64,000 bases of DNA from Subtercola boreus. Lineage in GTDB: Bacteria; Actinomycetota; Actinomycetes; Actinomycetales; Microbacteriaceae. The stretch covers positions 1 through 64,000 of the forward strand of contig NZ_NBXB01000006.1 of NCBI RefSeq assembly GCF_003399635.1, read 5' to 3'. The notes below the pieces were generated by a model. The model worked only from the letters and a program-made list of their open reading frames with translations. It did not search any database and was not told the DNA's origin. Positions 9,908-24,732 of the stretch are shown here, piece by piece. How positions within the stretch are numbered: position 1 is the first letter of the stretch; every line of letters starts with the position of its first letter. A program made the translations under genes and the position numbers.

Positions 9908-10689
9908 GCCAGCGTGGTCAGCTCCGAAGCGGCGATGCTGCGGTCGGCGATTCCCGCTGCGACGACCTGGAGTCGGAGGTTGTTGCGGCGTGCGTAGTCG
10001 CGGAGCAGCTGGAAGGCTTCGTTCATCGAGACCGAGTAGGTCTGGGCGAGCGCGCCCTTGGCCTGTTCGATGAAGATCCGGCTCTCCAGAGCATGGTTCA
10101 GCTGCTCGGTCACGATCGTCGTCTCCCGCAGCAGACGTTCCTGCAGGATGGCGATGGTCGCGGCGTCGGCGAGCGCCCGCGCGGCGCTCGCGTCGCGTTC
10201 GGCCACCGCGCCGATGGTGGTGCCGAGGAGGTTCAGGGTGCCGATCACGCGCCCCCGGAGCTTCATCGGCGTGGCGTAGACCGACTGGAATCCCTGGTTG
10301 AGGGCGGCGGTGCTGAAGGCCGGCCACCGGGTGCTCTCGGCGGCGATGTCGGGGACGGCGATCGGATCTCCGCTCGTGTAGGCGTCGACGCAGGGCCCGG
10401 CGCCCGCGTTGATCTGCATGATCTCGACCAGATCGGCCTGCTCGCTGGTCGACGCGACGAGCTCGAGCTGTTCGTTCTGGTTCGTCAGCATGAGACCGGC
10501 GGCCTCGATGTTCAGGATGCGCTTGCACTCCTCGACGAGGGTCTGCAGCAGGTCGACGATGTCGAAATCGTCGACGAGGGTGTCGGCGAGTTTCACAAAG
10601 GCTGCGCTGAGGAGCATTTCGCGTGACGTATCACTCACAGGGCTGCTCTCATCGTGCTGTTCGACGGTTGTGGTCTCATTGTCTGTCAT
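9904..10689 (-). CDS. GAF and ANTAR domain protein (RNA-binding antiterminator type)
   Basis: A 261-residue protein with a GAF sensor domain (about residues 30-175, including AGLMLTNQNEQLELVASTSE and AGPCVDAYTSG) and a C-terminal ANTAR domain (about 195-250, RIFIEQAKGALAQTYSVSMN, then AFQLLRDYARRNN). ANTAR domains bind paired hairpins in nascent RNA and prevent termination; GAF domains sense small ligands. The stop overlaps the start of the D-amino-acid oxidase-like gene, and its own ATG overlaps the stop of a decayed GAF-ANTAR paralogue (TAATG). It may regulate the downstream flavoprotein or distant transcripts. Confidence 0.88.
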   Translation of the reverse strand: MTDNETTTVEQHDESSPVSDTSREMLLSAAFVKLADTLVDDFDIVDLLQTLVEECKRILNIEAAGLMLTNQNEQLELVASTSEQADLVEIMQINAGAGPCVDAYTSGDPIAVPDIAAESTRWPAFSTAALNQGFQSVYATPMKLRGRVIGTLNLLGTTIGAVAERDASAARALADAATIAILQERLLRETTIVTEQLNHALESRIFIEQAKGALAQTYSVSMNEAFQLLRDYARRNNLRLQVVAAGIADRSIAASELTTLA

Positions 10690-11260
10690 TACTCCAGCTC
10701 CCGGAAATCCAACGTGCGGGCGATCACGCCGGCCGCGACCGACTGGATGGAACGGCCGGTCGAGAAGGCGTGCATCCTCAGTCGGTAGAACGCATCGGTG
10801 GCCGACACATCCAGTTGCGCGAAGATCATCCCCGTCGCCTGCTGCACCTCGCGCCGGGTCTCGGGCACCGGGCTCGACGAGAGCGTTTCGTCGTCGTTCG
10901 CAGGCGAAGATCGCTCCCACGGGGAGGCCTGCAAGGGCTTCGCTGAACAGGGGCCACTCGCTGGCGGAGGTCGAGACATCCGGAACCAGCACGGGGCGAC
11001 CCGTCTTGAGTGCCTCCCAGTGCGGGCCCTGGCCCCTCGCGAACTGCAGTTCGCTGAGCGTCGTCGCGGTGGCGTCGGACTCGAAGAGCGTCGACTCCTG
11101 CCCCGAATAGCCGGTGACCGAGAGCGAGGCCGGTGATCGGCAGTGCCTTGAGGAAGGGGCTGAGGAGCTGGTGCTGCCAGTCGGGGGGCGGGGCGGGAGT
11201 AGCGGCGGCGTCGCGCGGCCCGCCTGGGCCACGCGTGCTCGGATGCCACACAGCCCCCAC
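10689..11260 (-). pseudogene. decayed GAF-ANTAR paralogue
   Basis: Homology to the GAF-ANTAR family is spread over three frames of the minus strand: an N-terminal piece (DWQHQLLSPFLKALPITGLA), a GAF core in a second frame (SVTGYSGQESTLFES, then ELQFARGQGPHWEALKTGRP and VGAIFA), and an ANTAR domain in a third frame (RREVQQATGMIFAQLDVSAT, ending RTLDFRELE). The last third of the GAF domain is missing between the second and third pieces. So at least two frameshifts and one deletion are present. Sequencing error could explain single frameshifts but not the missing segment. Confidence 0.75.
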
Positions 11261-11321
11261 CGTACGCGATCGGGCCGGTGTGTGTGGAACGGGGGGGCGA
11301 TTCGCGTTAACAACCCGGCGG

Positions 11322-12194
11322 CTACGCGCCCACCACCGCTGCGATCATCAACCGCAGCAGCTCCTCGCCGGCCAGGATGCCGCGGCTGCCCGTGATCGTC
11401 AGGTTGCCGTGCACGAAGCCGGCCTCGTCGAGTTCCCCGTGGGCCGGCCGGAAGGCGAGGTCGGCCTCCTCGAGCATCCGCTGATCGAGCAGGGAGTCGC
11501 CCGCGGCGAGCACCAGCGATGCCCCGGCCCGTTGCCGCACCTCGGCGACCGCGTCGCTCTTCGTCACCGCGTGCGGCACACAGTAAAGCTTCCGTCCCTG
11601 CACCGAGACCGACCAGCCGAGCGCGCGGCAGGTCGCCTCGAGCTGCTCGGCCCAGGGCAACGGCATCGCAGCACGGTCGACGATGGCGTAAACGAAAAGG
11701 TCTTCGGCGTTGTTGACCTTCTCGATCCACGCCGCGGCCGCAGGGTCTGTGAGCAGGGCGGTCACCTCTGCGAGGGGGGCCGCCTCCTCGGCCAGGCGGC
11801 GACGCACCGAGGCCGCCCACGCGGCATCCGGAACCCCGTCGACAAGCAGAACCCCGCCGTTGCTGGTGATGGCGTAGGCAGGTGTCGGCCCGGGCAGTTG
11901 CACCCGCCGGTACTGGATGACCGTGCGGGTCGTCACCGGCACGAACACGCTTGCGGCGCGCAGTTCTGCGAGCAGCGCCTCGGCCCGGCGCGTCATGAAC
12001 GAGATCGGCGTGCCTCCGTAGAGCTCGGAGACGACCATTCCGGGGGCGTCGGCGTCGGCGGATTCGAGCCAGAAGGCGCGCGGGGAGTATATGAGCGTGC
12101 GGTCGAGGTCGCAGGCGGCGAGGGTGGTGGCGGGGGTGGCTTTGGGGGCGGGGGTCGTGGCGGGGGTGGCGGAGGCCGGGGTGGGGGTACTCAC
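11322..12194 (-). CDS. HAD-superfamily hydrolase of the Ter biosynthetic module
   Basis: A 290-residue protein with the HAD nucleophile motif LAACDLDRTLIYSP near residue 27, a Thr/Ser motif II (VPVTTRT) and a C-terminal AAGDSLLDQRML (motifs III-IV), close to the Cof/sucrose-phosphatase-like class. It is the last gene of the leftward operon and starts with GTG overlapping the StiP stop (GTGA). In Ter gene clusters a HAD phosphatase of this type accompanies PRTase, StiP and CitE-like proteins, and has been proposed to act in making a nucleoside-like metabolite. The first 25 residues are a Thr/Pro/Ala-rich tail. Confidence 0.85.
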   Translation of the reverse strand: MSTPTPASATPATTPAPKATPATTLAACDLDRTLIYSPRAFWLESADADAPGMVVSELYGGTPISFMTRRAEALLAELRAASVFVPVTTRTVIQYRRVQLPGPTPAYAITSNGGVLLVDGVPDAAWAASVRRRLAEEAAPLAEVTALLTDPAAAAWIEKVNNAEDLFVYAIVDRAAMPLPWAEQLEATCRALGWSVSVQGRKLYCVPHAVTKSDAVAEVRQRAGASLVLAAGDSLLDQRMLEEADLAFRPAHGELDEAGFVHGNLTITGSRGILAGEELLRLMIAAVVGA

Positions 12195-13435
12195 CGGTCG
12201 GCTGCCGCGCTCGTCACGAGCGGATTGATCAGGCCGACGCAGCTGTACGCCAGGTCATCCACCTCCTCGATCGGCACTCCGCGCTGCTCGGCGAGCAGCA
12301 GCACATGGGCGATGTCTTCGCGGGCACCGGGGCGCACCAGGATCTTCCACGGCACCCGCCGCAGCAGCACCCGGGTGGTCTCGCCGACGCCGGGTTTGAC
12401 GAGGTTCACGTTGTCGATGCCGTAGTCGGCGCTGATGCGTTCGACAGCATGCCAGCCCGACCAGGTGGGCGCGCGCTCACCGGCGCGGGTCTCAGCGGCC
12501 GCCTCTCTGACGCCTTCCGCGACCTCGGCTCTCACCGTCTCGTCGTCGAAATGCGCGCAGACGGCGTCGAGGAAGACCGCTGAGACGTCGTCATCCCGAA
12601 GGCCGGCGTAGAACTTGGCCCCGTGGAAGTCGCCTGCGCCGATCAGTTCCCGGTTGAAGACGGTGCGGGAGACGAGCCCCGAGACGGTCGAGTTCAGGCA
12701 CGCCGACGGGATGAGGTAGTCGTCGCGCGTGCCGAAGATGCTCACGCAGTGCCCCGGGTCGGCGAGCACCGCGAGGTCGTCGCCGAAGACGGTCCCGTCG
12801 GTGTCGGCGAACAGCGCGAGTGCGGCGGTGAGTTCGCGGGCGATGGCGCCCTTGCCGGTCCAGCCGTCGACGAAGACGATGCGATCGGGGTCGTAGGTCG
12901 CGGCCACGTAGCGCAGGGCGGTCTGGTCGAGCCCGACCCCCCGCACGATGCTCATCGTGAGGTGCGGAACGTCGGTGCCGTGCATCCGTTCGGTCCACCG
13001 CTTCATGAGGATGCCGATAGGCGTGCCCGCCCGGGCGAGAGACACCAGCACGGGCTGGCCCGCGCGCGCGGCGTGCACCAGTTCGGAGACGATGCCCACG
13101 GCGACAGCGACGCGACGGCTCGAGCGTTCGAGAGCCTCGGCGAACAGCTGCTGGTACTCCGGGCTCGGCACGTACTCGACGGGCAGTGTCTCGGCGTAGT
13201 TCGCTCGCCCGCTCTGGATGTCGCGCTCACGCTGGGCGGCGGGAGCCTCGAGTTCGGCGTCGCCGAGGTCCTTCAGCAGCCACAGGACGTCGGCGGCCGA
13301 GTACGAGCCGAAGGCGGGGCCGGTGAGCGGCGCGGGGAACCGGTTGGTGCCGGGGTTGATGAGCGGTGGGGCGGGGGTTCCGGTTGCGCCGGGGGTGGGG
13401 TTGCTGGGGCGGAGGTTGCTGGGGCTGGGGGTCAC
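12191..13435 (-). CDS. StiP-type protein with C-terminal PELOTA-like RNA-binding domain
   Basis: A 414-residue protein. After a Pro/Asn-rich leader, FGSYSAADVLWLLKDL opens the conserved StiP domain, which continues through YVPSPEYQQLFAEALE, GTPIGILMKRW and RIVFVDGWTGKGAIARELT. The end (VLLRRVPWKILVRPG, then HVLLLAEQRGVPIEEVDDL) fits the PELOTA RNA-binding domain noted in Ter-associated proteins. StiP is named as a cysteine protease, yet its PRTase-like motif VFVDGWTGKG suggests nucleotide chemistry; the activity is not settled. GTG start, 4 nt overlaps with both neighbours, so tightly co-expressed with PRTase and HAD. Confidence 0.83.
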   Translation of the reverse strand: MTPSPSNLRPSNPTPGATGTPAPPLINPGTNRFPAPLTGPAFGSYSAADVLWLLKDLGDAELEAPAAQRERDIQSGRANYAETLPVEYVPSPEYQQLFAEALERSSRRVAVAVGIVSELVHAARAGQPVLVSLARAGTPIGILMKRWTERMHGTDVPHLTMSIVRGVGLDQTALRYVAATYDPDRIVFVDGWTGKGAIARELTAALALFADTDGTVFGDDLAVLADPGHCVSIFGTRDDYLIPSACLNSTVSGLVSRTVFNRELIGAGDFHGAKFYAGLRDDDVSAVFLDAVCAHFDDETVRAEVAEGVREAAAETRAGERAPTWSGWHAVERISADYGIDNVNLVKPGVGETTRVLLRRVPWKILVRPGAREDIAHVLLLAEQRGVPIEEVDDLAYSCVGLINPLVTSAAADR

Positions 13436-15024
13436 GGGGTGGCCGGCTCCTCGGGGTGGGTGCGTGCGGCGGGTGCGGTGGGTGCGGTGAGTACGACGAA
13501 CACGTGGTCGGTCACGCGGCGGAGGGCCTCGGCCACACCGTCGGCGGCGAGAATCCGGTCGCGATCCGCATCGGGTTCGGGAAGGAAGACGATCGCGTCG
13601 AAACGTCGGCCGCCGCGCGTGAGGTTGTAGGCGAACCGGGGTCCGAACCCGTCACTTGTGAGGTCGTGGCTCGGGAACGTGATGGCGCTCGCGATGGCGT
13701 AGTCGGGGCGGTCGATCGGCGTGATGGGGGAACGTGTGGTGGTGGAGAAGCGCACGGAGCGCTCGCGGAGCGGGTCGGAGTGGCTGAGCTGGTCCGCGAC
13801 CGAGAGCGGCAGCGCGATGTGCTCCTCGGAGCCGAGCACGAGGATCGAGCCATCCGGCAGCTTCGGGTCGAGCGCTGCGACGATGCGGGCGGCCGCGCGG
13901 TCGTCGTCACCCGGGCGAGCGTCGACGCCGAACCGCGCGCTAGCCGCGCAACCGCCCTCGACCTCGACGAGTGTGAGCGCGCCTGCCGCGGCTGCCCGCT
14001 CCGTCTCCTGCGTCCCCGCGCCTCCTACCCGCGATTCCGGCGCCCAAGGGACGCAAAGTGCGCTTGGCGGAGCGGTTTGGAGCGATTTGGGTCCCTTCGG
14101 CGCGAGGGCGGGGGCGGGCGGGAGGGCGGCGAGGGGCCCGGGCGGGAGGGCGCGCGCGGCTCGGGCCAGCACGTCGGAGGGCAGGTCGATCGAGCCGGAG
14201 CCCAGCGCGACGACTGCTATCGAGGTGCCGAGCGTCTGGGCGAGGATGTCGAAGCGGGCGCGGTCGGCTTCTGAGCGCAGGTCGATGAGCGAGGCCACGA
14301 TCCAGCGCGACTGCGGCACCACGGAGTGCAGGGCGCGGATCGTGTTCACGATCGTGGTTCCGGTGCTCAGTTCGTCGTCGACAAGCACGACTGTGCCGCC
14401 CGGTCGCAGCCAGTCGGACCGGGCCGGGTAGAGCTGGTGGCTGGTGGCGTGGGAGTGCTCCTCCTCGAAACCCGCGAAGGGTGCGCGGCCGACCGGAGCG
14501 TGCCTGGTCGAGTGGATGTAGTACGAGCCGATCGTCGAGGCGACGAGCTGCCCGAGCCCGGTGGCGGTCTCGGCGTAACCGACGGTGACGACCTCCGGAT
14601 GCCGCGACCGAAGCCCGGCGACCTCAGCCCTGAGCTCCGCCACCTCGGCGAGGGACGCATCCGGAGCCCCGCCGGCCGCCGCCCCGCCTGCCCCGGCTGC
14701 TGCCGCCGTCTGCTGCAGGATGCGCGCGAGCCGCTCGAACAGGCCGGCCGGTGGGTGCCTCCCGTCGAGTTCGCCCCCGACGAGCAGACCGAGCAGCTCG
14801 GCGGCCACGATCACGATCCCGGGCGCGGTGGGCACGTGCTTGGCCAGCACCGTCGAGACCAGCAGCTGCGCGCGGCGGGGGTTTCGCCGGAGGGCGACCC
14901 CGACGAGGAGTTCGACGGGCACGAGGCTCCGCCGGTCATCCGTCCGTACCCGGATGCCGACCTCGCGTTCCGCAAAACCGCCGGTCCAGCTGGCGACAGC
15001 CACCCCGGGGCCCGCACCGCTCAC
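13432..15024 (-). CDS. phosphoribosyltransferase with C-terminal TRSP domain (Ter module)
   Basis: A 530-residue protein. The N-terminal half is a PRTase (VEVVTVGYAETATGLG-like substrate loop and VVLVDDELSTGTTIVNTI as the PRPP-binding motif, near residue 215-230). The C-terminal part contains STTTRSPITPIDRPDYAI, the literal Thr-Arg-Ser-Pro signature of the TRSP domain found fused to Ter-linked PRTases. The two halves are joined by a Pro/Ala-rich linker that is partly encoded by a palindromic repeat element. Starts with GTG overlapping the upstream lyase stop. Expected role: attaching a base to PRPP in the proposed nucleoside-like Ter metabolite. Confidence 0.87.
   Translation of the reverse strand: MSGAGPGVAVASWTGGFAEREVGIRVRTDDRRSLVPVELLVGVALRRNPRRAQLLVSTVLAKHVPTAPGIVIVAAELLGLLVGGELDGRHPPAGLFERLARILQQTAAAAGAGGAAAGGAPDASLAEVAELRAEVAGLRSRHPEVVTVGYAETATGLGQLVASTIGSYYIHSTRHAPVGRAPFAGFEEEHSHATSHQLYPARSDWLRPGGTVVLVDDELSTGTTIVNTIRALHSVVPQSRWIVASLIDLRSEADRARFDILAQTLGTSIAVVALGSGSIDLPSDVLARAARALPPGPLAALPPAPALAPKGPKSLQTAPPSALCVPWAPESRVGGAGTQETERAAAAGALTLVEVEGGCAASARFGVDARPGDDDRAAARIVAALDPKLPDGSILVLGSEEHIALPLSVADQLSHSDPLRERSVRFSTTTRSPITPIDRPDYAIASAITFPSHDLTSDGFGPRFAYNLTRGGRRFDAIVFLPEPDADRDRILAADGVAEALRRVTDHVFVVLTAPTAPAARTHPEEPATP
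14043..14100. repeat. ~57 bp palindromic repeat, copy A, inside the PRTase gene
   Basis: Arms CCCAAGGGACGCAAAG and ATTTGGGTCCCTTCGG pair with three mismatches around a 26 nt centre. The right half (TTTGGAGCGNTTTG and GTCCCTTCGG) is shared with copy B at 43171. Read on the gene strand it codes for the linker stretch beginning PKGPKSLQTAPP. Confidence 0.8.
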
Positions 15025-16241
15025 CGCATGCTCGCTTCGAGCAGGTCGACGAACGTCGTGGCCTCGGCGGCCACACCGAACGCCTCCGAGCGCAGCAGTG
15101 TCTTCTCGGCCCAGGACTGGTGCGGCTTCATCTCGTTCATCTTGTTGCGGTACGGCGACGCACTCGCGCCGCCACCCACGTTGCCGACGATCGCCAGGGC
15201 ATCGAGGTACTCCTCGTGGCTGACCACCGAAAGCGCGTGTACAACCGGAACATGCGTCGGGTGGATGACCGTCTTTCCGAGCAGCCCGTTCGCCTGGTCG
15301 AGCGAGATCTCCTTGATCAGGCCGTCGAGTCCGCCGAGCATGAGGCGCTGCCTCAGCTCGGGCTCGTTGGCGTCGGTGAACGGTGTGAGGCGCAGCTGTG
15401 GCCGGAGGATCCGCTCCGACGTGTCGAAGTGCTCCCAGACTGGCCCGGTGATGACGAAGTTGTCGGAGGGGCGGCCGAGCACGTTCACGATGTCGGCGAT
15501 CACCGCGGCCACGACCTTCACGTCGTAGACCGTGAGTTCCCGCGACCGCCGCAGCCCGAACACGCTCGACAGGTCGGTGGCGCCGATCCGCACGGCGAGG
15601 ATGTCGTCACGGTGCGCCTGCAACACGTCGACGATCGCGGAGAGGGCTCCGGTGCGCGTCTCGGTGTGCACCATCGAGGGCGATTCGAGGATCGGCATCA
15701 CGCGGAGGTGCCGACCGCTGGCGTTGCCTGCACTGCCAGCATGCCCGAACCGCTCGTGGATCTGCTCCAGCGCCTCGAAGAACCGATCGGCATAGCCGGT
15801 GTCGTTCTCGAACTTCGGGATCACGAAACCGCTCAGCAGAGCGAGCCCCGAGCCGCAGAGCTCGGCCATCCGGAGCATCTGTTCCGGTGTGCGCACGCGG
15901 ATGAACAGCAGCGGCAGCTCGCCCGGCTCCCCGTCGCCCGGTCTTTTGTCTCCGAGTGGCCGTTCCCAGAGGCTCTGGATCGCGCCGGCGACATTCGCCT
16001 CGGCGAACGCCACCGACGAGTCCGCGATCGAGTCTTCGAGGCACAGCACCATGCTGATGCAGCCCCGCGCCGCCTGCTTGGTGACATCCCGGGCGATCTC
16101 GGGCCGGTCTCCCGGAACGTAGAGGGTCGCGCCGAGCGCCGCCGCCAGCAGGTCGGGCGGCGAATCGATGTTGAGTTCGCGGGGCAGCCGATGGAACAGC
16201 GTGCCCGCCTCGGCGTCGCTGACGGATCGGAAGTGACGCAT
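15021..16241 (-). CDS. HpcH/HpaI aldolase / citrate-lyase beta (CitE)-like protein of the Ter module
   Basis: A 406-residue TIM-barrel protein of the CitE-like group: LYVPGDRPEIARDV at the N-terminal phosphate site, MVLCLEDSIADSS with the metal-binding Glu-Asp, LPLLFIRVRTPEQM, VMPILESPSMVHTETRTGAL and RIGATDLSSVFGLRRS. It is longer than stand-alone CitE (~290 residues), as Ter-linked members are. Proposed role is a C-C bond lyase or condensation step in the biosynthetic module. It precedes the PRTase gene with a 4 nt overlap, supporting a shared pathway. Confidence 0.87.
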   Translation of the reverse strand: MRHFRSVSDAEAGTLFHRLPRELNIDSPPDLLAAALGATLYVPGDRPEIARDVTKQAARGCISMVLCLEDSIADSSVAFAEANVAGAIQSLWERPLGDKRPGDGEPGELPLLFIRVRTPEQMLRMAELCGSGLALLSGFVIPKFENDTGYADRFFEALEQIHERFGHAGSAGNASGRHLRVMPILESPSMVHTETRTGALSAIVDVLQAHRDDILAVRIGATDLSSVFGLRRSRELTVYDVKVVAAVIADIVNVLGRPSDNFVITGPVWEHFDTSERILRPQLRLTPFTDANEPELRQRLMLGGLDGLIKEISLDQANGLLGKTVIHPTHVPVVHALSVVSHEEYLDALAIVGNVGGGASASPYRNKMNEMKPHQSWAEKTLLRSEAFGVAAEATTFVDLLEASMR

Positions 16242-16244
16242 CGG

Positions 16245-17159
16245 CTACCTCGTGCGGGGCTGGCGCGCGTCGAAACGGGCGGTCAGCTGGAAACCGAACT
16301 CGCGGTGGAGTTCCGCGGGGGAGAGGGCACGGGCGACCGGCTCGGCGCGCAGTTCGATGAGGGCGCCGATCCGCAGCAGGGTGAGCACGAACATCCGGTC
16401 GCCGGATGCCGCGCCAGCACCGGGGTCGGAGGCGACGGTGACGGCGACGGTGACGTGCGAGCCGTCGAACAGCTGCACGCCGATCGGTTCCGGCCCGTTG
16501 CCGATGAACAGCGCGCGGCGGAGGGTCCGCAGGTGGCGGAGCGCCACGATCGCGTCGCCGTCGTCGAAGCCGACGAGAGCCCTGTTGCCGGGCGTCATCA
16601 CGGGTGTGCCGGCGGTGTCGACGCCGCCCGACGTGAGGGTCAGGGCGCCGGTCACGAGGTTGGTGCTCTCCCAGGCGATGGCGTGCACCCCGGAGACGAT
16701 GAGGCTGCCGATGGCGGAGCGGCGGGCATCCAGTCGCAGCACCGGATGCTCGGGGCCGAGCTCCCGCACCTCGTCGATCGCGGGGGCGGGGAACGGCTGC
16801 GGGAGGGTGGGCCGTGCGGGGCGGGTTGGATCCGCTGGACGGGCACCGCTGGGGGCCGCCGCGGATGTCGGGCGGGAGCCGGACGCCGCAGCCGGCTTGG
16901 CGGTCGGTGTGGAGGCGGCTGCGGGCCGGAGACTGAGCCCGCCAGAGGTGGCAGGTGGCGTGGCGGGAGCAGCTGCGGGGGCAGTGGCCGGGGCAGCTGC
17001 GATTGCGGGCCGGAGGCTCAGCCCGCCAGAGGCGGAGGGTGTGGAGGGTGCGGACGGTGCTGCCGCGACGACCGCAGCCGCGACATCCACCGACACCGGC
17101 TTGACGCGCCGCCGCAGGTAGGGCAGGTCGCGGCGCACCGCCGCCCGGTTCAGCGCCAC
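16245..17159 (-). CDS. unknown Ter-operon protein with SGGLSLRP repeats
   Basis: A 304-residue protein of no family I can name with confidence. A basic N-terminus (MALNRAAVRRDLPYLRRRVK) is followed by an Ala/Pro-rich linker of ~90 residues holding two copies of SGGLSLRPA, and then a compact C-terminal domain of ~185 residues with beta-rich character (IGSLIVSGVHAIAWES, LRRALFIGNGPEPIGVQLFD, FVLTLLRIGALIELRAEPV). It sits between the third TerD gene and the CitE-like gene with 3 nt spacers on both sides, so it belongs to the operon. The GLSL core of the repeats resembles the N-terminal strand of the TerD proteins encoded nearby (MGLSLEKG); whether this is mimicry is a guess. Confidence 0.7.
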   Translation of the reverse strand: MALNRAAVRRDLPYLRRRVKPVSVDVAAAVVAAAPSAPSTPSASGGLSLRPAIAAAPATAPAAAPATPPATSGGLSLRPAAASTPTAKPAAASGSRPTSAAAPSGARPADPTRPARPTLPQPFPAPAIDEVRELGPEHPVLRLDARRSAIGSLIVSGVHAIAWESTNLVTGALTLTSGGVDTAGTPVMTPGNRALVGFDDGDAIVALRHLRTLRRALFIGNGPEPIGVQLFDGSHVTVAVTVASDPGAGAASGDRMFVLTLLRIGALIELRAEPVARALSPAELHREFGFQLTARFDARQPRTR

Positions 17160-17162
17160 GGG

Positions 17163-17717
17163 TTACAGCTCGATCCGGAAGTCGCGCGCCACCCCGGCGA
17201 GACCGTTCGCGTAGCCCTGGCCGATGGCACGGAACTTCCAGTCCGCGCGGTGCCGGTACAGCTCGCCGAAGAGCATCGCGTGAACGTTCCGGTCGTTGTC
17301 GGCGAGGGGCACGTCGAATCGCACGAGCTCCCGGCCGTCTTTCGTGGCGACGCGCACGTACGCTGAGCGCACCGCCGAGAAGTCGGCTGCTCCGCGCACG
17401 TCGGGGTCGACGTAGACGAGGAACGCGATCTTCTCGACGACGGCGGGCACCGCCGAGAGGTCCACGTCGATCTCCTCGGCGTCGGCCGTGTCGACGAACT
17501 GCACCGATCCGTCCTGGCTCTCGAGCTGGTTGAAGAAGACGAGGTGGTCGTTCGAGATCGCCTTGTCGTCGGCGTCGCACAAGATCGCGAGCGGCACCAG
17601 TTCGGCGCGCGGCCCGCGGCTCGGGATGACCTCCCAGCCGAACCCGACGAGAACCTCCGTGAGGCCGGGGTTCTCTGCGGTGAGGGCGGCGTTGGCCCCC
17701 GGGATGAGCGTGGCCAT
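17163..17717 (-). CDS. TerD-family protein, divergent copy
   Basis: A 184-residue TerD-fold protein (VLVGFGWEV, LAILCDADDKAISNDHLVFF, KIAFLVYVDPDVRG, LFGELYRHRADWKFRAIGQG, then GLAGVARDF at the end). TerD proteins are calcium-binding beta-sandwiches implicated in tellurite and membrane stress. Compared with the two other copies here, the acidic cluster GDNxTGxGDGDDE is replaced by FVDTADAEEIDVDL and the FDLDAS motif by LVPLAI, so calcium binding is probably altered. The start ATG overlaps the stop of the XpaC-like gene by one base (TGATG). Confidence 0.88.
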   Translation of the reverse strand: MATLIPGANAALTAENPGLTEVLVGFGWEVIPSRGPRAELVPLAILCDADDKAISNDHLVFFNQLESQDGSVQFVDTADAEEIDVDLSAVPAVVEKIAFLVYVDPDVRGAADFSAVRSAYVRVATKDGRELVRFDVPLADNDRNVHAMLFGELYRHRADWKFRAIGQGYANGLAGVARDFRIEL

Positions 17718-18238
17718 CAGCGACCGCCCAGCGTGAGGCCCGGATCCGGCGCCTGGAACTTGTCGGCCAGAAAACGGCCGTGCGTCGAGAGCTCCTCGAT
17801 GGCGCCGATCCGCACCTGGTTCAGCATGTCGCGCACGGTCCCTTCGAGAAGTTCCAGCTGGTCGGCGAACAGCGCGGTCGCCGCCGAGTCGTCGGTGCGG
17901 TCCCGTTCGGGCAGGGCCAGGAACGCGTGCAGCGGGGTGGGGATGTAGTCGCGCACCATCGCCTCCAACAGCACCCGCTGCTCGGTCGAGGCGCCCTGCG
18001 CGGCAATCGTGGCGACCACGTCCCTCAGCACATCGTCGATCTGGCCGAGGCGCGACGAGAGCAGGGTCGGCAGCTCACGGCCGGCGCGCCGCACCGTGCT
18101 CCGCAGGTCATCCAGAGCCTGCGCGGTCTGCTCGTCCTCACTCAGCGTGGCCGCGGCGGGCACGTCGTCGACCACTGTCGGCGTGGCCTCGGGTGCGGGC
18201 CCGCCGAACAGCGAGTTCACGAAACGGCCGAACGTCAC
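17717..18238 (-). CDS. XpaC-like helical protein, TelA partner
   Basis: A 173-residue mostly helical protein. After a short N-terminal segment (MTFGRFVNSLFGGPAPEA) come long amphipathic helices, with DYIPTPLHAFLALPE and LELLEGTVRDMLNQVRIGA, echoing the YLPTTLKLLEKY and E-x-x-L patterns of the XpaC (5-bromo-4-chloroindolyl phosphate hydrolysis) family that is commonly encoded beside TelA. That assignment rests on pattern and context only. It lies 15 nt downstream of telA and overlaps the third TerD gene by one base. Confidence 0.6.
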   Translation of the reverse strand: MTFGRFVNSLFGGPAPEATPTVVDDVPAAATLSEDEQTAQALDDLRSTVRRAGRELPTLLSSRLGQIDDVLRDVVATIAAQGASTEQRVLLEAMVRDYIPTPLHAFLALPERDRTDDSAATALFADQLELLEGTVRDMLNQVRIGAIEELSTHGRFLADKFQAPDPGLTLGGR

Positions 18239-18253
18239 CGTGTCACCTCAGTG

Positions 18254-19471
18254 TCACCGGCTGACCTCGCCCTGGTCGCCCTGGCGGCTGCGCTCGAGGT
18301 ACGGCTTAGCCTTCTGGATGCCCGTCTCGAGTGCCGCGACGGTGCCCTCCATATTCTTGGCAGCCGAGGCGCGGAAGGTGTCGATCGCATCCATTGTCTG
18401 GAACACGTTGTCGAACGCCTTCTGCAGCGTCTCGACGCTCACGCCCGAACTGCCGGCCTGCTCCTGGATGCGCACGGTCTGATCCTTCAGCATCTCGCTG
18501 GTCTTCAGGATCATGTTGTTCGTGGTGGTGTTGATGGCGTCGATCTGGTCGAGCACCATCTTCTGGTTCGCGAGCGCCTGCGCCACGATGACTGCCGTGC
18601 GGAGCGCCGCGATCGTGGTGGTGCGGGCCCGGTCGACACCCTTGATCAGCTCGAGGTTGTTCTTGCGGATCAGGTCCATCGCGAGATAGCCCTGAACCGA
18701 GACGGCGAGCTGGGTCAGGATGTCCTGGTGGCGCTGGCGGATCGGGAAGAGCACGTCGGCCTCGAGCTTCTGCGCCTCCTCGATCTGGCCGGAGGCGCGG
18801 CTGGAAGCGATCTTCTCGACGGTCGCGGCATCCAGGGCCTTCGCGAAGACCGCGTACTCGCTGAGCGCCTGCATCGTCTCCCAGAGCTGCACCTTCTCGC
18901 CGGCGAGCGCGGCGTTGTCCTTCAGCAGCTCGTCCTGGCCGGCCATCAGCGACTTGATGATCTTGTCGAGTTGCGTCTGAGCGCTCTCGTACTTCTGGAA
19001 GTAGCGCGCCAGCTTGTTGCCGCCCGGGATGAATCCCAGGATCTTGCGGCCGACCCCGAGGTCTGCCGCGTTCGGCGTCAGGTCTTCGACCGTCGTGCGG
19101 AGGTCGCCGAGGGTGTTGGCCACGGTGATCTGCGCACTGTTGCCGGTCTTCTTCGCGCCCGCCACAGAGGTGGATGAGCGTTCGAGCATCCGCGTCGAGT
19201 ATCCGCCCGACTGCACCATTTCGGCCCCGCCGATCTGCGAGATGCCCTCGACCTTGGTCTGGAACTCGGGGCTCCGCGGATCGAGCGAGCTGACCTCCGC
19301 CACGAACTCCCGCGCCTGGCGAGAGATCTCGGTCTGGCGCTCGGACGGCACCGGAACCATGCCCGGCGCCGCGTCGGCCACGACGATGTCGGGGGCATCC
19401 GGTGCGCGGAGCACCAGCGATGACGCCTGGGCGACGTCACTGCTGTCGGGGGGAGTGAGCGGTGTACTCAT
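18254..19471 (-). CDS. telA: TelA-family toxic anion resistance protein
   Basis: A 405-residue soluble protein, close to the family's usual length. Long helices carry typical TelA pieces: LGVGRKILGFIPGGNKLARY, then QKYESAQTQLDKIIKSLMAG, LWETMQALSEYAVFAKALD and AVSVQGYLAMDLIRKNNLEL, ending with IQEQAGSSGVSVETLQKAFD. TelA/KlaA proteins give tolerance to tellurite and to some antimicrobials by an unknown mechanism, perhaps at the membrane. The start at 19471 begins the conserved frame and follows a GGAG-like sequence. It lies between a TerD gene (13 nt upstream) and the XpaC-like gene. Confidence 0.92.
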   Translation of the reverse strand: MSTPLTPPDSSDVAQASSLVLRAPDAPDIVVADAAPGMVPVPSERQTEISRQAREFVAEVSSLDPRSPEFQTKVEGISQIGGAEMVQSGGYSTRMLERSSTSVAGAKKTGNSAQITVANTLGDLRTTVEDLTPNAADLGVGRKILGFIPGGNKLARYFQKYESAQTQLDKIIKSLMAGQDELLKDNAALAGEKVQLWETMQALSEYAVFAKALDAATVEKIASSRASGQIEEAQKLEADVLFPIRQRHQDILTQLAVSVQGYLAMDLIRKNNLELIKGVDRARTTTIAALRTAVIVAQALANQKMVLDQIDAINTTTNNMILKTSEMLKDQTVRIQEQAGSSGVSVETLQKAFDNVFQTMDAIDTFRASAAKNMEGTVAALETGIQKAKPYLERSRQGDQGEVSR

Positions 19472-19484
19472 GGAGGGAGCCTTT

Positions 19485-20063
19485 CTAGCCCAGTTGGACG
19501 CCGAAGTCGCCGGCGATTCCTGCGAGGCCGGTGATATAGCCCTGGCCCACGGCCTTGAACTTCCATTCGGCGCCGTTGCGGTACACCTCGGCGAAGACCA
19601 TCGCGGTCTCGGGGGCGGCGTCTTCGCTGAGGTCGAAGCGCACGATCTCCTGGCCGTCCTGGTCGACGACGCGGCAGTACGCTGCGCGCACCTGGCCGAA
19701 GTTCTGGCGACGCTCGTCGGCCTTGTCGATCGACACGGCGATGACGATGCGCTGCACGTCGGAGCCGACCTTCTGCAGGTCGATGTTGATCTGCTCGTCG
19801 TCACCGTCGCCTTCACCCGTGCGGTTGTCGCCCATGTGCTTGACCGACTCGTCGGGGCTCGCAGGTTGGTTGTAGAAGATGAAGTCCGCGCTCGAGCGCA
19901 CCTTGCCGTCTGCGCCCAGAAGAAGCGCTGACGCGTCGAGGTCGAACTGTTCGCCGCTGGTGGTACGCGGATCCCAGCCGAGGCCGACCGTTGCCACGGT
20001 GAGCCCGGGGCTGGTCTTGGTGAGCGAGAGGTTGTTGCCCTTCGCGAGGGTGAGTCCTGCCAT
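19485..20063 (-). CDS. terD: TerD-family protein
   Basis: A 192-residue TerD. It begins [16 protein letters not shown] and has [37 protein letters not shown] and the acidic calcium-binding cluster [18 protein letters not shown], then [20 protein letters not shown]. All coordinating acidic residues usual in TerD appear present. Such proteins bind calcium with high affinity and are linked to tellurite, phage and colicin tolerance. It is second in line after the first TerD gene and 13 nt ahead of telA. Confidence 0.94.
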
Positions 20064-20106
20064 GTGAATCAGTGCTCCTTGTTGGATTGTGCGGGTTCGT
20101 CTTTGT

Positions 20107-20700
20107 CTAGAGTGTCTGCGCGGCGGGGGTCAACAGATCCATCACGGAGCGGCCGTTCGCGCGGTTGCCGATCGCCTTGAAGCTCCACCCGGCGCCATCC
20201 CGGGAGACCTTCGACATGATCATCGCGGTGTGGGTGCCGGAGTCGGTCAGCTGGTAGCGGGCCACCTCGGGTGCTCCGGGGGCGGAGTCGTCGACGACGC
20301 GGCTGAAGGCGTTCTCGACCATGTCGAACGACTGCTGCGTGTAGCTCGAGATCACGAAGACGATCTGCGACACCGCCGGGGAGACCTTCGAGAGGTCGAC
20401 CAGGATGGTCTCGTCGTCACCGTCACCGGCGCCGGTGAGGTTGTCGCCGGTGTGGGTGGCCGACCCGTCCTTGCTGGCCAACTGCTGGAACCAGACGGTG
20501 TCGAGCACCTTGCCCGACGCGTCGAAGAAGATCGCCGACGCGTCGAGGTCGATCTCATCCGCAGGTTTCGCCCGGCCGAAGAGGCCGCGCTTCACGGGGG
20601 CGGCGCTGTCCCAGCCGAGCCCCAGGCGGATCTTCGTGAGAGCCCCGCCGTTTTTCTTCGTCAGTGAGAGCGACTGGCCCTTTTCCAAGCTGAGACCCAT
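20107..20700 (-). CDS. terD: TerD-family protein
   Basis: A 197-residue TerD starting [16 protein letters not shown], with [20 protein letters not shown], then a full acidic cluster [19 protein letters not shown] and a C-terminal [19 protein letters not shown]. The start at 20700 has AGGAG 8 nt upstream; a longer frame to 20751 has no support. A short basic insert ([12 protein letters not shown]) separates the first strands. It follows terC after a gap of 118 nt that holds a four-unit repeat, so it may have its own promoter as well as reading through from terC. Confidence 0.94.
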
Positions 20701-20765
20701 GGTGTTTTCTCCTTGTGTAGTGCATTCGGAGCGGGGGGATGCTCTCCCCACGCTAGAGGATACGG

Positions 20766-20833
20766 CGTTACCCTGCGCTCTGGGTTACTGCGTGCTCTGA
20801 GATATTGCGCGCTCTGGGTTACTTTGCGCTCTG
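20766..20833. repeat. four ~17 bp imperfect tandem repeats at the terC stop
   Basis: On the terC strand the units follow the form CCAGAGCGCANNGTAAC (lengths 17, 18, 16, 17). The first unit contains the last codons and the TAA stop of terC, the rest lie just downstream. Confidence 0.8.
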
Positions 20834-22000
20834 GCTGTGAAGTTCGTGAGCCTGGGCCAGCAGGGCGACGAGTTCTTCGTCGTCTGCGGCCTTCGCACGC
20901 TGCTTGTCGGAGAGGGCCTGGATGGCCTTCTCGCGGGCCACCATACGCTCGTAGGTCGCGGTGCGCTCGGCCTCGTCGCCCTTCAAGTCGTGTTCGACGA
21001 ACTTCTTGGCCTGGATGCGGGAGTCGCTGATGACGGTGTTCGCCTTGCCCGCCGGGCTGAACAGCGAGGCGAGAACGGTGATGGTGAGAACACCGATGAT
21101 GACGATCAGCGAGAGCTCGGTACTGATCTCGAACACCGGGATCGGCTGCCCACCGTTCAGGAACGGGAGGTTGTTCTCGTGGAGGGCGTGCAGCACCAGC
21201 TTCACGCCGATGAAGGCGAGGATCGCTGCGAGACCATAGCTGAGGAAGATGAGGCGATCCAGCAGGCCGTCGATCAGGAAGAACAGCTGGCGGAGACCCA
21301 TCAGGGAGAACGCGGTGGCGGTGAACACGATGTAGGTGTTCTGCGTGAGACCGAAGATCGCGGGCACGGAGTCGAGCGCGAAGAGCAGGTCGGTTCCACC
21401 GATGGCGACCATCACGAGCAGCATCGGCGTGAGGACCTTCTTGCCGTTCTCGATCGTGAAGAACTTGTCGCCGTCGTAGCGCTCGGTGGTGTTGAAGATG
21501 CGCTTCGCCAGGCGGATGATCACGTTGTCGGCGTCGTCGCCCTCTGACTCGGGGCGCAGCAGCTTGATGGCGGTGAAGATGAGGAACCCGCCGAAAAGGT
21601 AGAACAGCCACGCGAAGGAGTTGATCGCGGCGGCACCGATGAAGATGAACCCGGTGCGGGCGATCAGCGCGAAGACGATGCCGAAGAGCAGCACCTTCTG
21701 CTGGTCGGCACGCGGCACCCGGAAGCTCGCGATGATGATCAGGAACACGAAGAGGTTGTCGACGCTCAGCGCCTTCTCCGTGATGTAGCCGGCGAAGTAT
21801 TCGGTGCCGAGCGTCTGCCCGCCGAAGACCAGAACGCCGATGCCGAACGCGACAGCGATGCCCACGTAGATGGCCGACCACTTGGCGGCCTCCATCAGGG
21901 TGGGCTCGTGGGCTTTGCGCACGTGGAAGAAGAAGTCGAAGGCGAGGAGGGCCAGGATGCCGACGATTGTCAGCAGCCAGACGTAGCCGGGGATTTCCAT
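20819..22000 (-). CDS. terC: TerC-family membrane protein
   Basis: A 393-residue protein with about nine membrane helices. Hallmarks are EKALSVDNLFVFLIIIASF and GGTDLLFALDSVPAIFGLTQ, the two acidic transmembrane motifs of TerC/Alx proteins, which are linked to metal (manganese) export and membrane-associated Ter complexes. A charged cytoplasmic C-terminal tail (~60 residues) follows the last helix. It is the first gene of the operon, divergent from a MarR gene, with a perfect palindrome between them. Confidence 0.95.
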   Translation of the reverse strand: MEIPGYVWLLTIVGILALLAFDFFFHVRKAHEPTLMEAAKWSAIYVGIAVAFGIGVLVFGGQTLGTEYFAGYITEKALSVDNLFVFLIIIASFRVPRADQQKVLLFGIVFALIARTGFIFIGAAAINSFAWLFYLFGGFLIFTAIKLLRPESEGDDADNVIIRLAKRIFNTTERYDGDKFFTIENGKKVLTPMLLVMVAIGGTDLLFALDSVPAIFGLTQNTYIVFTATAFSLMGLRQLFFLIDGLLDRLIFLSYGLAAILAFIGVKLVLHALHENNLPFLNGGQPIPVFEISTELSLIVIIGVLTITVLASLFSPAGKANTVISDSRIQAKKFVEHDLKGDEAERTATYERMVAREKAIQALSDKQRAKAADDEELVALLAQAHELHSQSAK

Positions 22001-22086
22001 GGGTGAAGTGCTCCTGGGTGCTTGGAGGGTGCGTAGAGAGTGAGTGGAGGTTGGAGGTGTAATTTAGTTGGTGTGCTCCCACTATA

Positions 22087-22110
22087 TTTGGTTGGATCGC
22101 ACCAACCAAA
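22087..22110. promoter_or_regulatory. perfect palindrome between terC and marR, candidate MarR operator
   Basis: TTTGGTTGG-ATCGCA-CCAACCAAA, nine-base perfect arms, in an AT-richer stretch of the 143 bp divergent space. A related half-site TTAGTTGG occurs about 20 nt to the left. MarR proteins usually bind such 18-24 bp palindromes over their own promoter. Confidence 0.6.
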
Positions 22111-22143
22111 TTCGATCCCCGATTAGTCAGGAAACCTTCAGCT

Positions 22144-22638
22144 ATGGATCCAGACACTCCAGAACCCGTCAACGTCGGCGAGTCGATCGAGTCGACCCTC
22201 GCTCTCATCCAGCGCTGGTCGACCCGCGCCGAGAACCGTCGGAACCTCCACGACGCCGAGGGTGCGGCACTCTCCAGCACGGACTCCTGGTTGCTTGAAC
22301 GCCTCGTCGCCTCGAAGCCGATCCGGATGTCGCGGCTCGCCGAGTGGCTCGAGGTCGACAAGTCGACGATGACAACCGAGGTGCGGCGGCTCGAGCTGGG
22401 CGGTCTCGCCCGGCGCGAGCCCGACCCCGCCGACCGTCGCGCCGTGCTGGTGAGCGCGACGGAGGCCGGGGTGGTGGCGATCGAACGGCACCGACGCATC
22501 GCGCAGGACGTCTACAACACCCTCGTCGGCAAGTGGAACGAGGAGGACCGCGCCGACTTCTCCCGTCTGCTGCAGCGCTTCAGCCGTGAACTCTCCTGGG
22601 TGACCGACGCGGTCTGGCGCCACAACGAGTCCCGCTGA
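22144..22638 (+). CDS. MarR-family transcriptional regulator, divergent from the Ter operon
   Basis: A 164-residue MarR protein: dimerisation helices at both ends, and a winged helix with MSRLAEWLEVDKSTMTTEVR followed by LARREPDPADRRAVLVSATE (wing). The ATG is preceded by AGGAAA at good spacing. Given the head-to-head position with terC and the palindrome between them, it probably represses itself and the Ter operon and releases on a stress ligand; no sensing cysteines are visible, so a small-molecule signal is more likely than oxidation. Confidence 0.9.
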   Translation: MDPDTPEPVNVGESIESTLALIQRWSTRAENRRNLHDAEGAALSSTDSWLLERLVASKPIRMSRLAEWLEVDKSTMTTEVRRLELGGLARREPDPADRRAVLVSATEAGVVAIERHRRIAQDVYNTLVGKWNEEDRADFSRLLQRFSRELSWVTDAVWRHNESR

Positions 22639-22674
22639 CCCCTGAGTGTCGGCGGGGTGGCTTAGCGTCGAGGC

Positions 22675-23286
22675 ATGAGCCGGGAATCCTGTTGCAGCGT
22701 CGAGAGTGCGGGGGGCGGAGGCCGGGACGGGGGCGGCGGCGACGCGGGCGGGCGGGCCTGCGGTGAGCCGGTGGAGGTGGATGCGCCGGTGGCGCTCTGC
22801 GCGCACCATCTGCTGCTCGCGCACGACTTTGTCGCCCGGGAGGTGGGCATGACGGATGTGCTTCCGTCGCCGTGCCGCGCCTGCGGGTCGAGGCTCGGCG
22901 TACGGTACCCGTCGGGCTGGCTCTGCGCGGTGTGCGAGTGGAAAGTGGGAGAGTTGCCGGACTCCGACCCGGGTTCCGGGGTCTCGCGGGTCGAGGTGGT
23001 CTACTACATCCGCTCGGGCCAGCGCATCAAGATCGGTACGTCCGCCAACCCGCGGCAGCGACTCGGGAGCCTGCACTACGAGGAGTTGCTGGCGTTCGAG
23101 CCGGGCGGTCGGATGACCGAACAGCGCCGTCACGCGCAGTTCGCGGCGCAGCGGGTTCCGCGGAGCGAGTGGTTCGCCGTGCATCCGGAGCTCGAGGCGC
23201 ACATCGGGGTGCTCGCGCGGGGCGTTGACGACCCGTTGTCGCTGTATGCCCGCTGGCTGAGCGAGCGCCGCGCCCTCGGCGGGTGA
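22675..23286 (+). CDS. GIY-YIG (T5orf172/Mug113-like) nuclease-fold protein with zinc ribbon
   Basis: A 203-residue protein. A Gly-rich N-terminus is followed by a CRACGSRLGVRYPSGWLCAV zinc ribbon (CxxC...CxxC) and then a compact GIY-YIG-like domain: VEVVYYIRSGQRIKIGTSAN with the paired tyrosines, R at PRQRLGSL, the catalytic Glu region TEQRRHAQFAAQRV and the closing SEWFAVHPEL. The fold cuts DNA in homing enzymes and phage proteins; stand-alone versions like this have no established role. It follows the MarR gene by 36 nt on the same strand, so may be co-transcribed with it. Confidence 0.75.
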   Translation: MSRESCCSVESAGGGGRDGGGGDAGGRACGEPVEVDAPVALCAHHLLLAHDFVAREVGMTDVLPSPCRACGSRLGVRYPSGWLCAVCEWKVGELPDSDPGSGVSRVEVVYYIRSGQRIKIGTSANPRQRLGSLHYEELLAFEPGGRMTEQRRHAQFAAQRVPRSEWFAVHPELEAHIGVLARGVDDPLSLYARWLSERRALGG

Positions 23287-23349
23287 GGGGAGCGGGTGAG
23301 GGGGTCGGGCGACTCGGCGACCGGCCGGGCGGGTGTCTACGCTGGGGGC

Positions 23350-24732
23350 ATGACGACAGACCAGCTCGCAGACCTCGGCCAGCTCGAACAGCTCGCACCC
23401 GGCCGGGCGCTGACCGACGCGGAATCTCTCGACCGCTACAGCCACGACGACGCCGAGTGGGCCGACTTCGTGCCGCCGCTCGCCGTGGTGCTCGCACGCT
23501 CGACCGAAGAGGTCGCGAGTGTGGTTCGCTGGGCGGCCGAACGAGGCGTGCGCGTCGTACCGCGCGGCGCGGGAACCGGCCTCTCGGGCGGCGCCAACAG
23601 CATCGCGAATTCGATCGTCGTCTCGCTCGAACTCATGAGCGAGGTGCTGAGCGTCAACGTCGACGAGCGCTATGCCATCGCCCAGCCCGGTGTCATCAAC
23701 GATGCCCTCCGCGCGCACGTCGCCGCATTCGGGCTCTGGTATCCGCCCGACCCGGCCAGTTCGGCGATCTCCACGATCGGCGGCAACGCAGCGACGAACG
23801 CGGGCGGCATCTGCTGTGTGAAGTACGGAGTCACCCGCGACTACGTACTGCGGATGACCGTGGTGCTCGCGAGCGGCGAGATCGTGTCGCTCGGCCACTC
23901 GACTGCCAAAGGAGTCACGGGCTACGACCTCGCCGGGCTCATGGTGGGCTCGGAGGGCACGCTCGGCATCATCACCGAACTGACCGTGCGGCTGCTGCCG
24001 CTCGCGGGCCGCGACGAGCGTGCGGTCATCGGGTACTTCCCCTCTCTCGAAGCGGCGGGCGTCGCCGTTGCCGCCATCTCGCGGGCCGGCATCATCCCGG
24101 CCGCGCTCGAACTCATCGACCACACCTGCCTGGTTGCCGTCGACGAGTGGCAGCACCTCGCCCTGCCGTCGAATGCGAAGGCGCTGCTGCTGGCGAAGGT
24201 CGACGAGGCCGGGCCGGCAGGGGAGGCGCTTACCGACCGGGTCGCGGACGTCTTCGTCGATGCAGGCGGCTCGAACGTCGAGCGGGCCACGGACGCGGCG
24301 GAGATCGCGCGCCTCTTCCTGGCCCGCCGACTCGCCTACCCCGCGCTCGAGCGTCTCGGGCCGGTGCTCACGGAGGACATCTGCGTGCCGCGATCCGCCG
24401 TGCCGGAGATGCTGCAGCGCATCCAGCAGGCGGCCGCCGAGAACGACGTGGTCATCGCGAACATCGCGCATGCGGGTGACGGCAACCTCCACCCGCTGAT
24501 CATCGCTCCCGTGGGCGACGACGCGGCGAAGGATCGGGCCAAGACAGCGTTCGACCGCATCGTGGCCGACTGCCTGGACCTCGGCGGAACCGTCACCGGC
24601 GAGCACGGGGTCGGGCTGTTGAAGCTCGAGGGGGCCCGGTTGGAGCTGGGGGAGCCGGTCATCCGGATGCACGAGGCGATCAAGCACGGGCTCGATCCGC
24701 TCGGCACGCTGAACCCGGGTAAGGGGTTCTGA
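23350..24732 (+). CDS. FAD-binding oxidase, GlcD / D-lactate dehydrogenase type
   Basis: A 460-residue flavoprotein of the vanillyl-alcohol-oxidase fold. The PCMH-type FAD domain contains VRVVPRGAGTGLSGGANS and STIGGNAATNAGGICCVKYG and LAGLMVGSEGTLGIITELTV; the C-terminal substrate domain has EDICVPRSAVPEML, IANIAHAGDGNLHPL and GGTVTGEHGVGLLK, with the His and Glu residues of glycolate oxidase subunit D and D-lactate dehydrogenases. It oxidises a 2-hydroxy acid, passing electrons to quinone or oxygen. Start ATG at 23350 begins the conserved frame. No GlcE/GlcF partners are adjacent. Confidence 0.88.
   Translation: MTTDQLADLGQLEQLAPGRALTDAESLDRYSHDDAEWADFVPPLAVVLARSTEEVASVVRWAAERGVRVVPRGAGTGLSGGANSIANSIVVSLELMSEVLSVNVDERYAIAQPGVINDALRAHVAAFGLWYPPDPASSAISTIGGNAATNAGGICCVKYGVTRDYVLRMTVVLASGEIVSLGHSTAKGVTGYDLAGLMVGSEGTLGIITELTVRLLPLAGRDERAVIGYFPSLEAAGVAVAAISRAGIIPAALELIDHTCLVAVDEWQHLALPSNAKALLLAKVDEAGPAGEALTDRVADVFVDAGGSNVERATDAAEIARLFLARRLAYPALERLGPVLTEDICVPRSAVPEMLQRIQQAAAENDVVIANIAHAGDGNLHPLIIAPVGDDAAKDRAKTAFDRIVADCLDLGGTVTGEHGVGLLKLEGARLELGEPVIRMHEAIKHGLDPLGTLNPGKGF

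Follow-up and report, generated by a model that had tools for sequence, protein, structure and literature searches.

The window analysed here, 64,000 nucleotides (nt) of Subtercola boreus DNA, carries a minus-strand run of eleven genes (11322-22000) that is, in outline, a Ter operon of known type in a Subtercola-type actinobacterium, and it raises the question of what one of these genes, located between a divergent terD and a gene for a CitE-like lyase, contributes to such a system. A preliminary description of the locus had called its product the unknown SGGLSLRP protein and had listed it as an unknown subunit of the operon. The gene (16245..17159, minus strand) encodes an N-terminal RxDxxxLxRR motif, a linker with two copies of SGGLSLRP and a C-terminal domain predicted to be of TerD type. 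Searches of Pfam, NCBIfam, PHROGs and PADLOC assigned no family either to this protein or to the one encoded next to telA, hereafter the XpaC-position protein (17717..18238, minus strand). We propose, with a probability of about 0.5, that the SGGLSLRP protein is not an enzyme but a multivalent scaffold, whose linker carries Leu-x-Leu (LxL) tags matching the tail of the XpaC-position protein and gathers the proteins of the operon on a shared docking partner. We infer that an LxL tag binds a partner.

The C-terminal domain of the SGGLSLRP protein (residues ~130-290) is likely of TerD-type fold; a structural comparison, a weak match of profiles and relatives in which it is fused to TerD all point this way. 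We do not claim membership of PF02342. Its predicted structure resembled the TerD structures with which it was compared, 3ibz, 2kxt and the SCP2 chain 9a6r_B; the last is a relative of TerD, a kinship that the analysis supported. Pfam returned no TerD match (0 families at E<=0.01). With hhalign, a widened alignment gave a weak match to the TerD profile (P 0.0014, probability 17%), alignment A6 gave P 0.014 and alignment A1 no match; a Foldseek search of the PDB taken alone, a search of solved structures with A1 and hhalign with narrow alignments yielded nothing usable. TerD-only rows, misplaced in alignment A7, were left out of A8. Thus, the protein resembles the TerD family in its predicted fold and differs from it by the missing Pfam match, by its long tagged linker and by the absence of the acidic GDN-TG-GDGDDE stretch. 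This stretch is present in the canonical terD1 and terD2 products and missing from both the SGGLSLRP protein and the terD3 product, which suggests that the latter two would more likely be structural than calcium-binding.

Ahead of the tags, the SGGLSLRP protein carries a near-invariant R-x-D-x-x-x-L-x-R-R motif (residues 9-18). In an AlphaFold model of terD3 read through into the SGGLSLRP gene, built on a shallow alignment, the linker had a predicted local distance difference test (pLDDT) score of 36-49 and the tags were not docked on TerD3; a short strand formed only at the RxDxxxLxRR motif (residues 201-204, block pLDDT 62). The model gives a weak hint that this motif, and not the tags, may contact TerD3. 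By eye, the motif seems recognisable in TerD fusions of relatives (L121-L126) as well. The SGGLSLRP protein occurs in several families of the class. The plasmid and phage collections searched gave no match to it, and a plasmid or phage origin was rejected on this ground.

The half of the SGGLSLRP protein that is modelled with low confidence, and is likely disordered, is the one that bears the LxL repeats. Among 76 homologues, the relaxed linker pattern [GSAP]L[STDNV]L occurred 137 times in 73 proteins, compared to 3.5±1.8 times in shuffled sequences, and a strict pattern 109 times in 55, compared to 1.1±1.1; most of the 21 homologues without a strict match carried GLSLAP or GLSLTP, and three had no relaxed match. 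The motif was also found within the last 25 residues of 112 of the 120 XpaC-position homologues listed, from 148 found. This C-terminus reads ...PDPGLTLGGR in the window and ...SDLDL or SDLDLD/E in L047, L117, L137, L138 and L121-L126. Where one protein of a locus carried LDL, the others carried LDL or LNL, including the TelA N-terminus MSDLDLG; in the Subtercola-Plantibacter-Arthrobacter loci, the residue between the two leucines was mostly S, T, V or R, and in some cases D. When 506 predicted genes from 34 stretches were scanned, two tags within 60 residues were found in 12 genes, all encoding the XpaC-position protein or the SGGLSLRP protein in its separate or fused form, an N-terminal SD(x)L[DN]LG in 10, all of them telA, and the strict C-terminal tag in 19, comprising 13 XpaC-position genes and 6 unrelated ones; the patterns were drawn up post hoc and the loci are related, so that these counts describe specificity and are not a clean measure of significance. 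A sliding-clamp-type motif, QL[SD]LF, was rejected as the identity of the tag, since Q and F are missing.

A search based on the PRTase gene retrieved 13 related loci in Subtercola, Plantibacter, Arthrobacter, Pseudarthrobacter, Glaciihabitans and Nocardioides. The order terD1-terD2-telA-XpaC position-terD3-SGGLSLRP gene-CitE-PRTase-StiP-HAD, for which the preliminary description had proposed a comparative search, was indeed found in ten of them (L035-L038, L040, L042-L046), with an additional TerD copy or piece in Arthrobacter-type loci and broken frames in L046. L041 follows the order of the window up to the PRTase gene, where the locus ends, and the part covered by L039 begins with the CitE-like gene. 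In the Nocardioides locus (L047), telA, the XpaC-position gene, terD3 and the SGGLSLRP gene are kept as a block after the enzymes. In all 12 Subtercola-Plantibacter-Arthrobacter loci, the last two genes are separate and share a frame, a stop and one codon lying between them; in L047 and L117, they overlap by 4 nt. Programmed read-through of the terD3 stop was rejected because its identity varies (TAA/TAG/TGA); the arrangement suggests coupling only. In 11 further loci (L061-L065, L067, L071, L072, L074-L076; family label f36), a single protein joins a canonical TerD domain to the C-terminal domain of the SGGLSLRP protein through a linker that is rich in proline and bears LDL tags. L066, L069 and L073 were not counted as fusions, as they were unreadable in one frame (L066 being partly masked).

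The block can also be found away from the enzymes. Stretches with the f36 fusion (L121-L126, L174) have the order telA, XpaC position, fusion, and no enzyme matches in the fetched stretch. In G156, the fusion is at about 6.36 Mb and PRTase_2 at about 1.22 Mb of the same contig; the corresponding contig positions in G188 are 5.32 and 1.97 Mb. In G355, the block is present (L117) and includes one unrelated gene, and PRTase_2 gave no match. Since the block is kept together while the enzymes lie elsewhere, telA, the XpaC-position gene, terD3 and the SGGLSLRP gene behave as a unit of their own. A TerB-like gene, recognised by eye, separates the HAD gene of G125 from the convergent block (L137:3092-3547).

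TelA was present in 32 of 197 genomes sampled, and 30 loci were fetched, one of them being the window. The other 29 comprised 8 with an N-terminal tag, 9 with a C-terminal L[DE][LI] tag (one of them weak) and 12 with neither (one with its start cut). By pattern, 13 of the 29 had an XpaC-like neighbour, which ended in LxL in 7 cases, in MTL in 2, in LDS in 3 and in none of these in 1. Results showed the TelA tail tag in 12 of 12 scorable loci with such a neighbour and in 5 of 16 without (12/0 versus 5/11; Fisher P 2.5e-4, to be taken as a guide because the genomes are related). G198 was excluded from the test because its TelA start is cut; G104 lacks the XpaC pattern, yet it gave an XpaC match in tblastn. 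The N-terminal SSLVLRAP (LVLRAP) of the window TelA was rejected as a tag of the cassette and is read as a generic TelA motif. A motif of the LVLRAP type is seen in 97 of 120 close TelA homologues, but TelA carries an LxLTPPxPV-like motif near its start whether or not the genome has the block. Several loci (L169-L171, L175, L177) carry a tagged TelA and an XpaC-position gene and no TerD match within the 16-19 kb fetched, which argues against TerD as the sole docking partner; in L169, the XpaC-position gene was found by its C-terminus alone. In the TerD-less clusters (these and L172), TelA has a C-terminal GSLDLSS-type tail, an XpaC-position gene is usual, and most add a protein of ~500 amino acids, a membrane protein and a lipoprotein-like gene.

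According to the Ter model as outlined in PMC7824862, PRTases and HAD enzymes make a nucleotide-like signal that TerB and TerD might sense, TerC responds in the membrane and TelA forms sub-membrane structures; Ter operons that make a signal by PRTase and HAD enzymes are credited there to Anantharaman, Iyer and Aravind (2012). On this model, the scaffold would be a wire between signal-sensing TerD domains and a layer of TelA and XpaC-position protein. As docking partner, we would most readily suggest the globular portion of the XpaC-position protein, which would form chains joined by the scaffold. The MarR protein encoded head to head with terC would hold the terC promoter off and, on its release, TerC, the canonical TerDs, the scaffold block and the four enzymes would be made together. 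The signal, the inducer, the metabolite and the control by MarR are predictions.

The scaffold reading has to be weighed against other accounts of the same protein. The tag could mimic the N-terminal strand of canonical TerD and dock on TerD domains by strand addition, in which case the TerDs would be the shared partner. The tags GLSLRP and AGLTLGG do resemble the TerD N-termini of the window (GLSLEKG and GLTLAKG in terD1 and terD2), TerD is fused to the tag linker in relatives, and a TerD type is likewise predicted for the C-terminal domain of the scaffold. However, the tags remained disordered beside TerD3 in the model, which covered TerD3 only and used a shallow alignment, and tagged TelA and XpaC-position proteins occur in the TerD-less clusters; we therefore hold this account to be unlikely. 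The choice of the XpaC-position protein as the only partner meets a difficulty of its own, since L172 encodes a tagged TelA and gave no XpaC match.

Two further accounts leave the tags without a docking role. If the repeats were low-complexity filler between the N-terminal motif and the TerD-type domain, their likeness to the XpaC-position tail would be coincidence or an effect of composition, and a linker that is rich in Pro, Ala and Ser, variable in length and free of tags in a few members would fit this; yet the tags exceed shuffles ~40-fold, double tags among the 506 genes are limited to the block, and the same residue changes recur on separate proteins across lineages, so that filler seems quite improbable. 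The view of the preliminary description, in which the SGGLSLRP protein serves the biosynthetic enzymes and the operon makes a metabolite as one unit, draws on the single tight operon of the window and on the position of the gene directly before the CitE-like gene in Subtercola-Plantibacter-Arthrobacter loci. It is very improbable in the light of G156 and G188, where megabases of a single contig separate the enzymes from the fused form, of G355, where the block is present and PRTase_2 is not matched, and of L047 and L137, where the block stands on the other side of the enzymes. The protein is thus probably no enzyme subunit; it is better described as a likely member of the TerD type that bears repeated tags and keeps company with telA, the XpaC-position gene and terD3.

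As a wider and more tentative extension of the scaffold reading, somewhat short of even odds, actinobacterial Ter/TelA systems may be wired by a transferable docking code, in which the LxL tag hops among the N- or C-terminus of TelA, the C-terminus of the XpaC-position protein and up to seven scaffold repeats (<=7), giving a stress-induced sub-membrane assembly around one hub. What is new here is likely the identity of the SGGLSLRP protein together with the shared tag, the predicted MarR switch being lineage-specific. The literature searched showed no report of such an LxL tag; the 2012 Ter survey lay outside that search. Ter genes are widespread, though how TerC, TerD, TelA and the enzymes cooperate is unsettled, and a shared tag, open to mutation at each of its residues, would offer a direct handle on protein contacts. 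A TerD-type family unseen by Pfam also widens the Ter inventory.

In the genome searched (3.85 Mb, label G000), the remaining genes of the run fell into known families. From terC to the HAD gene, all on the minus strand, these are terC (20819..22000; Pfam TerC 160.8 bits), encoding a TerC/Alx-type membrane protein of metal homeostasis, terD1 (20107..20700; TerD 160.8 bits), terD2 (19485..20063; TerD 266.9 bits), telA (18254..19471, start at 19471; TelA 294.6 bits), the divergent terD3 (17163..17717), and the genes for a CitE-like C-C bond lyase (15021..16241; C-C_Bond_Lyase, PF15617, 375.4 bits), a PRTase_2-TRSP protein (13432..15024; PF15609, PF12500), a StiP-PELOTA_1 protein (12191..13435; PF11202, PF15608) and a HAD-type phosphatase (11322..12194). 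All except the last passed the Pfam cut-offs, as did marR (22144..22638, plus strand; MarR 39.1 bits); the HAD gene had weak HAD-IIB matches below cut-off in NCBIfam and none in Pfam. With terC, terD, telA, PRTase_2, StiP, the C-C lyase and this weakly matched HAD gene in one run, the locus belongs to the Ter operons with a biosynthetic set. The order, strands and families given in the preliminary description held, as did its enzyme set apart from the weakness of the HAD match; besides the 118 nt after terC that it named, one more spacer exceeds its 15 nt: successive gaps are 118, 43, 13, 15, -1, 3, 3, -4, -4 and -4 nt, with 43 nt between terD1 and terD2. A consensus scan listed 1 promoter-like and 4 terminator-like sites, compared to 0.5 and 4.1 in shuffles, and counts this close to the shuffle level indicate no clear split of the run. 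PADLOC models recognised 0 families among the 10 operon proteins tested; Ter systems may simply be absent from these models.

The label 'XpaC-like' could not be upheld. Neither the window protein (no Pfam family at E<=0.01) nor its relatives have Pfam support for it, although the Pfam and NCBIfam libraries presumably contain an XpaC model; the name is owed to the position beside telA alone. The Listeria pair lmo1966-lmo1967, as described in PMC12791056, likewise has a small XpaC-position gene beside telA, and the actinobacterial partner differs from it in its lack of a Pfam match, its LxL tail and its link to TerD-type proteins. Compared to operons of the 2012 type, as cited in PMC7824862, the window shares the terC, terD, telA, PRTase, StiP, C-C lyase and HAD-type genes and differs by the MarR-terC switch (Subtercola/Plantibacter), by the tagged TerD-type scaffold and by having no ATPgrasp_Ter, as is usual in its relatives. 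The missing ATP-grasp enzyme, pointed out in the preliminary description, was borne out genome-wide, where the single ATPgrasp_Ter match (21.1 bits) stayed below cut-off. It is not a special trait: among 19 genomes surveyed, not all of which have the enzyme set (G355 being the example), the match was strong (E<1e-30) in 3 and above cut-off in 7, so that absence is usual and we did not treat it as defining.

As had been described, marR lies head to head with terC. The 143-base-pair (bp) region between them holds a predicted MarR operator, O1, with perfect 10-bp arms; it spans 22086..22111 instead of 22087-22110, and its 6-bp centre is unpaired. Arms of 10 bp were reached in 4 of 2000 first-order Markov shuffles of this region, and the palindrome pattern occurs once in the genome at <=2 mismatches. 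On the minus strand, TTGGTT-17 nt-TATAGT runs across the palindrome as the predicted terC promoter, so that the operator covers the -35 (22104-22109) and the spacer; the consensus scan does not list this promoter because TTGGTT is a poor -35. In all seven marR-terC regions compared (the window, L035, L036, L037, L038, L041 and L045), the -10 box TATAGT (22081..22086, minus strand) and TATAGTGGGA are identical, the latter with TTGGTTGG-N6-CCAAC(C/T)AA-like arms above and CCAACTAA below. In the window, this CCAACTAA is a conserved downstream half-site and possible second operator (22064..22071, minus-strand reading). Perfect arms occur in the window, L035 and L041, whereas those of L036, L037, L038 and L045 contain mismatches. 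A conserved palindrome that covers the promoter in the gap separating a regulator gene from its target is the layout of a MarR-autoregulated divergent operon, and the site is placed to repress terC, which is good circumstantial evidence for a switch with predicted MarR binding. The suggestion that MarR is a defining part of the system was not supported: a homologue adjoins terC in 6 of the 13 related loci, 6 gave no MarR match and 1 is cut, and the switch is therefore a lineage trait. The window terC resembles the TerC/Alx family (TIGR03718, 356.9 bits) and differs in having the predicted MarR site instead of an Rfam family at 9000-24500; a riboswitch upstream of terC was rejected on this empty search. 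TerC proteins of B. subtilis metalate exported enzymes, according to PMC10550928.

Downstream of the HAD gene, the stretch 9904-11250 contains, on the minus strand, a GAF-ANTAR regulator gene (Pfam) and probably, judged by its open frame, a second one. Two matches recur in L035 at the position of these genes, which may encode RNA-binding antiterminators for neighbouring genes. Just behind marR lies a MUG113/T5orf172 gene (22675-23286), presumably of GIY-YIG type, and likewise in L035, L037 and L041. A fourth, canonical terD is located on another contig of the same genome (G000:C11:284524-285075).
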